In this document: one piece after another, positions 30,554 to 39,643 of the stretch | Position numbering within the stretch: position 1 is the stretch's first letter | How the letters are laid out: each line of letters starts with the position of its first letter | Assembly (NCBI GenBank): GCA_029550525.1 | Contig: JAKPHF010000048.1 | Coordinates: forward strand, 124,001-188,000 | DNA: 64,000 bases | Direction of reading: 5' to 3' | DNA from: Planctomycetota bacterium | GTDB lineage: Bacteria; Planctomycetota; Phycisphaerae; UBA1845; PWPN01 | The notes under the pieces: model-generated | Seen by the model: only the letters and a program-made list of their open reading frames with translations | The model's database searches: none | What the model was told of the DNA's origin: nothing | Program-made: the position numbers and the translations under genes

Positions 30554-31882
30554 TCAGATGCGAGTCACGACGAGGGTGTCGTTCTGTCCCCCGAAGCCGA
30601 AGCTGTTGCTCAACGCCGCGTCCACCCGAGCCTTGCGGGCCTGGTTAGGCACGTAGTCGAGCGGGCAGTTCGGATCGGGCACCGAGTAGTTCATGGTTGG
30701 AGGCAGGATGCCGTCGCGAATCGCCAGCACGCAGGTGATCAGCTCGACCGCGCCGGCCGCCGCGATCAGGTGGCCGAACATGCTCTTGACCGAACTGATG
30801 GGCACCTTCTTGGCATGTTCGCCGAACACGCTGGCGATGGCGAGTGACTCAATCTTGTCATTCTCTTCCGTGCCCGTGCCGTGAGCCGAAATGTAGTGGA
30901 TGTCGGCCGGTGTGAGTCCCGCGTCCTCAAGGGCCAGGCGCATGGCTGCGATGCCGCCCCGGCCGTCCTCGTGAATGTCGGTGATGCGGAAGGCGTCCGC
31001 CGTCGAACCGTACCCCCTGACCTCGGCCAGGATCCGCGCCCCGCGCCGTACCGCGTGCTCGTACTCTTCCAGAATCAGCATGCCCGCGCCTTCGCCGAGC
31101 ACGAATCCGTCGCGAGTACGGTCAAACGGACGACTGGCGGTGATGCACGAGTCGTTGCGGGTCGACAACGCGGTCAACCGGTTGAACCCGGTCACGCCGA
31201 ACGGGTGAATCATGCTGTGCGTGCCGCCCGAGATGACCACGTCCGCGTCGCCGCGACGGATGAGATTGGCCGCCTCACCGATTGCCTGCGTGCTGGCCGC
31301 GCACGCGGTCAGCGTGTTGAAGGTCGGGCCTTGCACGTTGAACTGGCAGGCGATGTGCCCGGCCGCCATGTTGGGGTCCTGCTCAAACTCCCGGACGGCG
31401 TCGAGCTTCTGCCCGGCCACCTCGGCCCATTTGCAGGCGTCCAGGTCGCCTCGTCCGCCGTTGGCCTCGCGGTTCCAGGCCCGCACCGCCGCTTCCACGA
31501 AGTTGAAGAAGTCGATGGGCCCTTCGCCTCCGCCCAGGTAAATGCCCGCGCGGGTCGGGTCCAGACCGTCGAAGCGGTCGAGGCCGGCGTCCGTCCAGGC
31601 CATCTTGGCCGCCGCCAGCGCAAACTGCGTGTTGCGACTGCCGCAGCGATGCCGCTCGGCATCCGCGCCGAGGTACTTGTCGAGGCTGAACCCCTTGACC
31701 TGAGCCGAAAATGTGGTCGGGAATGTCGAGGCGTCGAACAGCTCCGTCGGCGAAATGCCGCTTTCGCCCTTGAGGAGACGCTGCCAGACGGCCTCGATGT
31801 CGTCGCCGAGCGGCGTGATCCAGCCCATGCCGGTGATCACCACGCGACGTCGGCTGCTGTCGGGGGAGTTGCTCGCCACCAT
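30554..31882 (-). CDS. Beta-ketoacyl-ACP synthase (KS-alpha, FabF-like), catalytic residues intact
   Basis: TACAASTQAIGEA Cys, ISAHGTGTEEND His, SSVKSMFGHLIAAAGAVE Lys/His. Confidence 0.9.
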   Translation of the reverse strand: MVASNSPDSSRRRVVITGMGWITPLGDDIEAVWQRLLKGESGISPTELFDASTFPTTFSAQVKGFSLDKYLGADAERHRCGSRNTQFALAAAKMAWTDAGLDRFDGLDPTRAGIYLGGGEGPIDFFNFVEAAVRAWNREANGGRGDLDACKWAEVAGQKLDAVREFEQDPNMAAGHIACQFNVQGPTFNTLTACAASTQAIGEAANLIRRGDADVVISGGTHSMIHPFGVTGFNRLTALSTRNDSCITASRPFDRTRDGFVLGEGAGMLILEEYEHAVRRGARILAEVRGYGSTADAFRITDIHEDGRGGIAAMRLALEDAGLTPADIHYISAHGTGTEENDKIESLAIASVFGEHAKKVPISSVKSMFGHLIAAAGAVELITCVLAIRDGILPPTMNYSVPDPNCPLDYVPNQARKARVDAALSNSFGFGGQNDTLVVTRI

Positions 31883-33220
31883 TTATGCCTCCAACCGCTT
31901 GAGCACCAGGGCGGCGTTCTGACCACCACCCAGGGCGTAGGCCACAGTCAATGCCACATTCACCCGGACGTCGGCAGGCTTGTTCCGGACGACGTTGAGA
32001 GGACACTCCGGATCGAGCGTCTCCACGTTCCGGGCGGCCGGCACGGTGTTGTGCTGCATGCACAGCGTTGCGATGGCCACGTCGATCGCGCCCGCCCCCG
32101 CTCCGTTGTTGCCCGTGAATCCCTTGGTGGCCAGGGCTGGAATCTCCGTCGCCCGGTCGCCCAGGGCCAGCCGCAGACCACGTGCCTCGGACACGTCGTG
32201 TGCCGGAACGCCCGAACCGAACGTCCCGATCAGATCGACCTGGTCGGCCGACAAGCCGGCGTCCTGCAAGGCCTTGGTGGCCGCCAGCGCCAGCGCCTTG
32301 CCTTCCGGATGAGGCTCCGACCAACTGTGCGTGTTGGTGCTGGCCCCGAACCCGACCACCTCGGCATAGATCCGCGCCCCGCGCCGACGGGCGTGCTCGA
32401 GTTCCTCGAGGATAAGCAGGCCACCGCCTTCGCTGATCACTGTGCCGTCGCGGCTCGCGTCGAACGGACGGCAGGCGGACTCGGGCGTATCGTTGTATTT
32501 CGTCGAGAGCCGACCCAGCAACTGCTGACGCATCAGCCCCATGGGGTTGATTTTGCTTTCGGCCCCGCCGCAAATGCAGATGTCGGCCGCGCCGCGAGCG
32601 ATCGTCCGGAACGCTTCGCCGATGGCCAGATGGCTCGACGCTTCCGAGCAGGTGATCGTGTTCGACGGCGCCTGGGCGTCGTGCACGATGGTCACGTGAC
32701 AGCTCAGCATGTTGGGCAGGAACTTCAGCAGCCACAGCGGCGTCAGGTTGTTCATCCCTTCGGCGCCCCATTTGCGGATGCTGAACGCGCCGTTCTCATC
32801 CACCGCCGTGCTCAACGCCCCCGCCAGCTCGCACAGATCCGCACAGATCAGGCCCGCACCGATGTTGGCCCCGAATCGCGTCGACTCAATGTTGGGCGGC
32901 CCCTCGACCTCGCCCCGCTCGATCAGGCACTTGGTCTTCAATCCCGCGTCCTTGGTCGCGCAATAGGCGGCGGCCACCGCGATCTCGATGTCGCGAGCCA
33001 TCACCCGGGCGTTTTTGCGGTACGTCTTGGGGATGTAGTTGCTGACCGACAGCGACGCGATCTGCCCGCCCACCTGCGAACTGAACCGCGACGGGTCGAA
33101 CGCGCTGATCCGGCTCGTCCCGCTCTGGCCGGCCAACAGCGCGGTCCAGACCTCCTCGGTCCCGATCCCGATGGGCGTGACCAGCCCCAATCCCGTAATC
33201 ACCACGCGACGTGATTTCAT
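31883..33220 (-). CDS. Ketosynthase-like protein lacking catalytic Cys/His/His (KS-beta/chain-length-factor-like)
   Basis: Ungapped alignment to the neighbouring KS: TACAAST versus CSEASSH (Cys to Glu), AHGTGT versus TFGSGV (His to Phe), KSMFGHL versus KGFTGNN (His to Asn). Confidence 0.85.
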   Translation of the reverse strand: MKSRRVVITGLGLVTPIGIGTEEVWTALLAGQSGTSRISAFDPSRFSSQVGGQIASLSVSNYIPKTYRKNARVMARDIEIAVAAAYCATKDAGLKTKCLIERGEVEGPPNIESTRFGANIGAGLICADLCELAGALSTAVDENGAFSIRKWGAEGMNNLTPLWLLKFLPNMLSCHVTIVHDAQAPSNTITCSEASSHLAIGEAFRTIARGAADICICGGAESKINPMGLMRQQLLGRLSTKYNDTPESACRPFDASRDGTVISEGGGLLILEELEHARRRGARIYAEVVGFGASTNTHSWSEPHPEGKALALAATKALQDAGLSADQVDLIGTFGSGVPAHDVSEARGLRLALGDRATEIPALATKGFTGNNGAGAGAIDVAIATLCMQHNTVPAARNVETLDPECPLNVVRNKPADVRVNVALTVAYALGGGQNAALVLKRLEA

Positions 33221-33318: not shown

Positions 33319-33822
33319 CTACGCGTCCGGCGGGGAGCCACCGGCTTTCGGACTGACGTCGATCTGGTACATCCGAAGCAGGCTCTTGAAGTCCTCGGTG
33401 AACACGAAGTTTTCTTCCGGGAAGTCCAGCCCGCTCATGTTGTTGTCGATGTGGCTGAACATCAGGTCGATGCGGCCCAGCTCTTTGCCGTCGCAGTACA
33501 CGGTCCCGCTGATCTGCGCCGCCTGCTCGGTGATCGTGTCGATGGTCGCCTCGTAGCGCAACTGCTGGCCGGGCCGAACCAGTCCGTTGAAGCTGGCCCG
33601 GCGAATCTTGGCCAGGATCACCTTCTCGGCAAACTGCCGCGCCTCGCCCACCAGGATGCCCGCCGTCTGGGCCATGCCCTCGATGATCAGGCTGGCCGGC
33701 ATGATCGGGTAGGCGGGAAACTGGTCGTGCAGATGCTCCTCGGCCAGCGTGACGTTCTTGGTCGCCACCGCCCGCCTGCCCGACTCGAACTCGACGAAAC
33801 GGTCAATCCAGATCCAACGCAT
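33319..33822 (-). CDS. FabZ/FabA-like hotdog protein lacking the catalytic His
   Basis: EHLHDQFPAYPIMPASLIIEGMAQ; Gln where FabZ has the His of HFP; Glu retained. Confidence 0.82.
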   Translation of the reverse strand: MRWIWIDRFVEFESGRRAVATKNVTLAEEHLHDQFPAYPIMPASLIIEGMAQTAGILVGEARQFAEKVILAKIRRASFNGLVRPGQQLRYEATIDTITEQAAQISGTVYCDGKELGRIDLMFSHIDNNMSGLDFPEENFVFTEDFKSLLRMYQIDVSPKAGGSPPDA

Positions 33823-33965
33823 GGTATGCTGTGAGCTCTGAGCTACGCCGGTTCCTGACGCCGGCTGTCTTCGCAACTAGCACAACGGCCGGCATGGGGC
33901 CGGCCGTCGTGACTTTGAGAGCGTTTGTCCCGCACGCATCGCGCGAATCCACGCGGTTCAACCCG

Positions 33966-34480: not shown

Positions 34481-34954
34481 TCACACCGCCGTCTGGAGCA
34501 GGCTCAACTGCTGCCGAGCCGACGCCACGAGCTTGCGATCGATTTCGGCCATCCCGGCATCGCTGTCCGCGAGGTTCAGGTGGCGAAGCGTCCAATGCGC
34601 CTTGACCATCTCCTGGTCCCCGCATCGCCCGACGCCCACGAACTGGCTGGAATCGGCGTCGATCTTCTTGGCTTCCACCTGAACTTCCAGCACCCGGCCG
34701 GGGGCGACGAAACTCTTGTACGTTACATTCTTCGCCTCGCCCAACACCAGAATGCTGTGAGCGAAATCCTCACTGACCCGGACCAGGTGCATGGACGCCT
34801 GCACCATGGCCTCGATCATGAGCACGCCCGGCAGGACGGGGAACGTGGGGAAATGATCCGCCAGATATTCCTCCGCCAGCGTGACGGCCTTGACCGCCTT
34901 GATCCGCTCGCCCGGCACCAGTTCGGTAATTCGATCGATCAGGTTGAACTTCAT
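34481..34954 (-). CDS. FabZ-like 3-hydroxyacyl-ACP dehydratase with intact catalytic His
   Basis: EYLADHFPTFPVLPGVLMIEAMVQ. Confidence 0.85.
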   Translation of the reverse strand: MKFNLIDRITELVPGERIKAVKAVTLAEEYLADHFPTFPVLPGVLMIEAMVQASMHLVRVSEDFAHSILVLGEAKNVTYKSFVAPGRVLEVQVEAKKIDADSSQFVGVGRCGDQEMVKAHWTLRHLNLADSDAGMAEIDRKLVASARQQLSLLQTAV

Positions 34955-38470: not shown

Positions 38471-39643
38471 ATGTTCAGGCGCCCAAGTGCAGGTAACAGC
38501 CGGACCACCCGCGGCTTTACCCTCATCGAACTGCTGGTGGTTGTCGCGATCATCGCCCTGCTGATCAGCATTCTTCTTCCCTCGCTTCAAAAAGCCCGCG
38601 AGATTTCGCGGCGAACGGCCTGTGGCGCCAACCTGGGTGGCTTCGGTCGCGCGGCATTGACGTACGCCGAAGTCAACAAGGGCGTTCTGCCGTCGTCTGA
38701 CCACAACCCCACTGTATCCACCACAGCTCAGGGCACCGTCTCCGGTCAAACCGCCACGTTGGTCGGCTACAACCGTGCCTTCCGGGATCGCCGCACCGCC
38801 ACTGACTCGATCGCCAACACGAACGACGGCAGCAACACGCGCGGCTGGTTCAAACTGCTAAGAGGCGGCAAGAACGCGTACCTCAAGGGCAAGCAGCTCA
38901 TCTGCCAGAGCACCCGGCAATTGCGGCATAATCCGGAAGGCACCAGAGCCACAATCATCTCCGGCAGCGGTAAGGAAATCCAAGCTTACGACTTTGACGG
39001 CGGGCTCAGCGAAGATGGCCCTGCTCCTGCCCGTAATCCTACCCCCGGAACGGAAATGGCCGAATTCAGTTATTCCTTCGCGGTCACTTTGAAGAACGGC
39101 GGTCCCGGCGGCGCCAATTCGGGTGAGGTCTGGGGCCACATCCTCACGAATACCCAAGACCCGGGCAAGGCGATCGCGGCCGATCGCAACCCCTACTCGA
39201 ACCACATTGAGCCGCGCCGCAAGCTCACAGATATCACTCGCGACGGAGCGACGTTTGTGATCGGCGGCTACGGGCATTACCAGTACAAGCCAGACAAGCT
39301 GTCGTCCGACATGCAGGGCTTCAACCCTCCTCCCATCCCACAGAACGATGACGACTACCAGACCATCCTCCGCACCAAGAAGACCGTCAACTCCCGCAAC
39401 CACAAACAGGAAGGTCAGAACGTCTGCTACCTCGACGGCCATGCCAAGTGGGCCAACAATCCCAAGGTGGGTGTGGACGACGACAGCATTTGGAGCAACT
39501 GGGTCTACGACCCCCGCAGTCCTCAAGGCTTCAAAGTCAACAAGGATCGACTGCCCTACGACGCTCAGCCTCCGAGCGGCGAGACCTATGGCACCATGCG
39601 AGCCAAGAGCAACTGGGCAACCGATTCGGTGCTGATCCCATAA
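38471..39643 (+). CDS. Type II secretion/type IV pilin-like protein with prepilin N-terminal methylation motif
   Basis: [31 protein letters not shown]. Confidence 0.9.

Follow-up and report, generated by a model that had tools for sequence, protein, structure and literature searches.

The planctomycete protein KSbeta has a ketosynthase (KS) fold in which the catalytic Cys and both catalytic His are replaced, and its gene lies directly before that of an intact, FabF-like ketosynthase (KSalpha). KSbeta probably serves as the non-catalytic half of a KS heterodimer, within a module dedicated to acyl elongation. KSbeta descends from an intact ketosynthase, KS1, by an ancient tandem duplication, and a second planctomycete lineage carries the same operon with both ketosynthases intact, to all appearances an ancestor-like state of the KS/dead-KS operon that shows how such pairs arise. 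The operon lies in the window, by which we mean the whole 64,000-nucleotide stretch of contig JAKPHF010000048.1 that was analysed (Table 1).

Table 1. Genes of the operon and active-site codons of KSbeta, in window coordinates
Feature	Coordinates	Strand	Residues and basis
FabZ-like dehydratase 1	34481..34954	(-)	catalytic His34 and Glu48 present
ACP, dedicated, 129 aa	33966..34355	(-)	GAES41ID attachment site
FabZ-like dehydratase 2	33319..33876	(-)	catalytic His replaced by Gln52 (33721-33723); Glu66 retained
KSbeta, ketosynthase-fold protein, 445 aa	31883..33220	(-)	ATG start; AlphaFold2 and FabF-fold match
KSbeta Glu193 codon, catalytic Cys position	32642..32644	(-)	alignment
KSbeta Phe334 codon, first catalytic His position	32219..32221	(-)	alignment
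KSbeta Lys366 codon, Lys retained	32125-32123	(-)	
KSbeta Asn371 codon, second catalytic His position	32108..32110	(-)	alignment
KSalpha, intact FabF-like KS	30554..31882	(-)	Cys194, His334, Lys366, His371, gate Phe430

KSbeta lacks the catalytic residues of active ketosynthases

HMMER alignment with FabF structures covered the full length of KSbeta and gave Glu at the Cys position, Phe and Asn at the two His positions and a retained Lys. A sequence-only reading of this DNA had described the same replacements beside an intact KS, and both parts of that description were confirmed, as the catalytic residues of KSalpha are all in place. KSbeta has the thiolase-type KS fold of active FabF (KAS II) with both domains (PF00109 and PF02801) and lacks its Cys-His-His triad; its FabF equivalog score of 333 is below the cut-off of 494, and its identity to KSalpha is 38%. 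Modelled alone with AlphaFold2 (pLDDT 95.4, pTM 0.94), KSbeta had FabF as its nearest solved fold (target TM 0.93-0.95).

One MAFFT run introduced compensating one-residue gaps near the Cys site of KSbeta that would shift the Glu one residue later. Larger alignments had no gaps around this site, and in a model of the two proteins as one chain (described below) KSbeta Glu193 and KSalpha Cys194 each lie 13 residues past the end of a helix and 21 residues ahead of the next strand. The ungapped alignments and the equal spacing make Glu at the Cys position the better register.

Across 79 KSbeta relatives, the Cys site is occupied by Glu in 63, Asp in 13 and other residues in three (Gln in one), and never by Cys. 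The first His is still His in 36 of the 79; at the second His position 56 have Asn and four have His, while the Lys is retained in 62. Among these relatives, only the loss of the Cys is general, not the loss of all three residues. Since no KSbeta has the Cys and all 72 KSalphas keep Cys, His, Lys and His, the change in the KSbeta site is not due to chance. KSbeta has dN/dS values of 0.05-0.16 (0.04-0.10 for KSalpha) and invariant residues specific to it, and is under purifying selection. On the opposite strand, an open reading frame of 777 aa spans both KS genes (window 30881-33214 (+)), and similar ones recur in relatives; we take these as a by-product of codon bias.

The KS pair ends a five-gene operon conserved in the class

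KSbeta and KSalpha are the last genes of an operon on one strand with the order FabZ-ACP-FabZ-KSbeta-KSalpha, in which the stop codon of KSbeta (TAA) is immediately followed by the ATG of KSalpha. The sequence-only reading had left out the operon's own ACP and its two FabZ-type dehydratases. The ACP is lengthened by a conserved segment of some 50 residues; although it looks like AcpXL by eye, its HMM score was no closer to AcpXL than to an ordinary ACP and does not support homology with AcpXL. The second FabZ has lost its catalytic His in six of 28 genomes of the order, namely that of the window and five of the 27 others, with Gln, Leu, Tyr and Lys as replacements. These sequences suggest repeated loss of the His in one half of a dehydratase pair, but a loss in just six of 28 genomes led us to drop the idea of a general pseudo-dehydratase.

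The operon has no reductases, FabD or FabH of its own, and unrelated genes flank it (a GH38 glycosidase, a radical SAM protein and two-component genes). A canonical FASII cluster with FabF, ACP, FabG and FabH is present on another contig (C75), which makes the five-gene operon a second, dedicated module. The genome also encodes an LpxC-FabZ fusion protein and homologues of lipid A acyltransferases. At G000:C8:62154-63503 (L146:7155-8504), another divergent KS lies directly after a biotin synthase-like radical SAM protein that carries a BATS domain, and in the window itself positions 38471-39643 (+) encode a protein with a pseudopilin-like N-terminus, a frequent type in planctomycetes.

A KSbeta ortholog (57-82% identity), mostly adjoining KSalpha, was found in 40 of 41 order-level genomes, counting that of the window; outside the order, a match was present in each of the 14 genomes sampled from the class. 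We compared 80 named loci, all from Planctomycetota and mostly from Phycisphaerae. KSbeta adjoins KSalpha in 76 of these, and the full gene order is present in 54, many of the incomplete loci being cut by contig ends. No other lipid genes, and no tailoring, ligase or transport genes, are conserved among the neighbours of these loci; seryl-tRNA synthetase and a ComEC-like gene, both named by eye from their sequences, often lie next to the operon. In the genomes examined that are Planctomycetia-like, as judged from genome features and from a 2009 paper (PMC2649909), there are several KSbeta paralogues with Glu, Asp or other residues at the site, and these do not adjoin KSalpha. Pairing is thus not forced by operon structure in those genomes.

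Active-site loss followed a tandem duplication

A planctomycete family outside the window's class, which we call f25 (genomes G052, G078, G097 and G156; loci L046-L049 and L148), has a FabZ-ACP-FabZ-KS-KS operon in which both ketosynthases are catalytically intact. In the tree, f25 KS1 and all KSbetas are sisters (100/96), as are f25 KS2 and all KSalphas (100/99), and both groups together split from FabF (97/97). AU tests rejected both a clade of f25 KS1 with KS2 (p 9e-5) and a clade of KSalpha with KSbeta without f25 (p 0.001). The tree and these rejections place the tandem duplication first and the loss of the KS1 active site later.

The sequence-only reading had likened KSbeta to the chain length factors (CLFs) of type II polyketide synthase (PKS) and aryl polyene systems and had proposed a phylogeny. 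The part of the type II PKS likeness that holds is the arrangement, a dead KS beside an intact one; the tree places the origin of KSbeta inside the planctomycete tandem KS duplication, as sister to KS1, although a clade of KSbeta with the actinorhodin CLF is not firmly excluded by the AU test (p 0.08). KSbeta is not of the aryl polyene kind by descent, and the CLF of that system is half-size.

The question of how CLFs evolved out of active ketosynthases is commonly pursued in the polyketide clusters of actinobacteria, which no longer contain the ancestor. In planctomycetes, one operon occurs in two states, with KS1 and KS2 both intact in f25 and with a dead KS1 in the window's class, and the tree matches the slots one to one. 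If planctomycetes do preserve the ancestral state in this way, the change of an active KS pair into a KS/CLF-like one could be replayed experimentally with extant proteins. We regard the intact, ancestor-like operon as the most interesting part of these results and the one that makes the finding worth following.

Comparison with known inactive ketosynthase partners

Inactive KS partners are already known from R. baltica, from rhizobia (FabF2XL) and from the KS/KS' pair of anammox bacteria. Rattray and colleagues (2009) described two FabF paralogues of R. baltica in which Glu or Asp takes the Cys position, and noted that the K. stuttgartiensis protein Kuste3606 lacks the catalytic residues (PMC2649909). 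The Rhodopirellula baltica paralogues, RB4527 and RB3714, resemble KSbeta in the acidic residue at the Cys site and probably form that branch of the KSbeta clade which belongs to the Planctomycetia. Unlike the KSbeta of the window, paralogues of this type keep the first His and are not beside KSalpha in the Planctomycetia-like genomes examined.

The anammox pair is similar in several respects, being from the same phylum and encoded in an ACP-FabZ-KS-KS' operon, with both ketosynthases present as chains of one solved entry. A fragment of chain B of PDB 9s5h/9s5i is 95-96% identical to the KS in several genomes, and chain C matches the adjacent KS' over its full length. On this sequence match, the two chains are almost certainly the anammox KS/KS' pair, and the gene order and KS' residues of that family agree with Kuste3603-3606; the chains would belong to the proposed ladderane-type cluster (kuste3603-3608 type). 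Like KSbeta, the anammox KS' lacks the Cys and both His and keeps the Lys (PMC2649909, PMC4790861). However, the anammox pair goes back to its own duplication in the tree (98/98), although the AU test does not firmly reject a joint clade of KS' and KSbeta (p 0.07), and its KS' has Val/Ile-Asn-Glu where KSbeta has Glu-Phe-Asn. The order of the two ketosynthases is also reversed relative to the five-gene operon, there is one dehydratase, and the published cluster includes desaturase and radical SAM genes. In an anammox-type cluster of another planctomycete family, f72, the KS' has Glu at the Cys site (L225:10502-11728), as against Val/Ile in the Kuenenia-like KS', an apparent further change of Cys to Glu.

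In rhizobia, the very long chain fatty acid of lipid A is the product of the acpXL cluster (PMC11901934). This cluster shares with the operon a dedicated ACP, a dehydratase and a dead KS directly before a live one, the order in S. meliloti being ACP-FabZ-FabF2XL-FabF1XL. FabF2XL has Glu at the Cys site in all four Rhizobiales genera compared (L198, L204-L206), a residue of which we found no mention in a narrow literature search for active-site terms. It differs from KSbeta in being very divergent and about 45 aa shorter, and the rhizobial cluster has a single dehydratase and is followed by adh and lpxXL genes. HMM scores of FabF2XL did not discriminate between KSbeta (73-83 bits) and FabF (63-79 bits), and do not support homology of KSbeta and FabF2XL beyond general KS likeness.

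The KS/CLF of type II PKS (actinorhodin, PDB 1tqy) likewise consists of a full-length dead KS beside a live one. As in a CLF, KSbeta is a KS-like subunit without the Cys next to an intact KS, but CLFs have Gln at this position, also a polar residue, where 76 of 79 KSbetas have Glu or Asp. In the tree, the CLF groups with its own KS or with FabF, apart from KSbeta (AU test of a joint clade, p 0.08). The KS comes first in the Streptomyces type II PKS cluster that we read, whereas KSbeta precedes KSalpha in the operon, which also has no aromatase or cyclase. The aryl polyene proteins ApeO and ApeC form a KS/dead-partner pair too, with paired dehydratases and ACPs of their own. ApeC has a single thiolase domain and half the usual size (PMC8358021), with 240 aa in E. 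coli CFT073, whereas KSbeta is full-length with both KS domains. Taken with rhizobial FabF2XL and the anammox pair, the five-gene operon suggests that special membrane-lipid pathways have repeatedly given rise to dead-KS partners, in several cases with an acidic residue replacing the Cys.

Proposed role of KSbeta and alternatives

The heterodimer with one inactive partner that the sequence-only reading had proposed gains support from the adjacency of the genes in 76 of 80 loci, from the TAA-ATG junction and from the constraint on KSbeta. A structure model points the same way. KSbeta and KSalpha are in frame with only the TAA between them, and can be read as one chain of 888 residues. The model of this read-through chain had a pTM of 0.86 over 888 residues and a mean pLDDT of 77.9, from a shallow alignment of 11 rows that included 10 naturally in-frame paired relatives; the covalent join could bias it. 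Two equal domains of undefined relative placement are expected to score a much lower pTM, and the model thereby suggests that KSbeta and KSalpha form a defined arrangement.

From these results we infer direct pairing of KSbeta with KSalpha, shaping of the pocket, sharing of FabG, FabD and FabI, and the nature of the product. The growing chain would be carried on the operon's own ACP, and KSalpha would perform every condensation. KSbeta would do no chemistry and would stand in for the second KS of the dimer. The acyl pockets of ketosynthases sit at the dimer interface, which is why KSbeta would be expected to shape the KSalpha pocket and hence the chains accepted; control of chain length by KSbeta is plausible. 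Against this reading, KSalpha could form homodimers, and the KSbeta relatives of the Planctomycetia-like genomes examined are not encoded beside KSalpha. The two FabZ proteins, probably paired, would dehydrate, and reduction and malonyl supply would come from the main FASII enzymes. By analogy with acpXL, and given the housekeeping distribution, our leading guess for the product is a special acyl chain of the envelope, possibly a very long one. The findings suggest that nearly all Phycisphaerae make an acyl product that has gone unrecognised. We see the case as evenly balanced for a broader claim, that a KS/dead-KS heterodimer belongs to the core lipid metabolism of the whole class rather than to secondary metabolism and that planctomycetes keep the ancestral intact tandem pair.

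A closer parallel, in which KSbeta plays the part of FabF2XL, would account for the shared order of ACP, dehydratase, dead KS and live KS and for the shared Glu, and would fit a genome with an LpxC-FabZ fusion and lipid A acyltransferase homologues; the KSbeta residue aligned with the actinorhodin CLF gate 'GGF' is also small (Ala, Cys or Thr in the rows read). Nevertheless, we think this rather unlikely, given how far FabF2XL has diverged without being clearly nearer to KSbeta than to FabF, an ACP that is no closer to AcpXL than to ordinary ACPs, and the absence of adh or lpxXL genes beside the operon. Less likely still is that the pair acts like the KS/CLF of a type II PKS and produces a reduced polyketide or a polyene instead of a fatty acid. 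A KS/dead-KS pair with a dedicated ACP and two dehydratases does recall highly reducing type II PKS, and the KSalpha pocket region has a strictly conserved acidic residue, which is considered below. Yet KSalpha is closest to FabF, the distribution is that of a near-universal housekeeping operon, tailoring, ligase and transport genes are not conserved nearby, and we know of no chromophore.

The acidic residue of KSbeta, together with the Gln that CLFs carry at the same site and the first His kept by nearly half of the relatives, could instead indicate a chain-initiating decarboxylase of the KSQ type with Glu in place of Gln. Decarboxylation is generally held to require both His residues, and the second is present in so few relatives, with both gone from the KSbeta of the window, that we judge such an activity very improbable. 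That KSbeta is a decaying, functionless duplicate might be thought from the absence of all three catalytic residues, but is contradicted by its dN/dS, its own invariant residues and its retention in nearly every genome of the order, and we give it practically no credence.

The conserved acidic residue of KSalpha is at the position of FabF Ile108, where all 72 KSalphas have Glu (71) or Asp (one); in the window it is Glu120 (31523-31525). It is odd for an acyl pocket to have an acidic residue buried in it. A search of plasmids for an Iga11-like KS for comparison with Glu120 gave no result. In the ishigamide KS-CLF, the cavity of Iga11 contains the acidic residue Asp113 (PMC8358021), which Glu120 of KSalpha may resemble.
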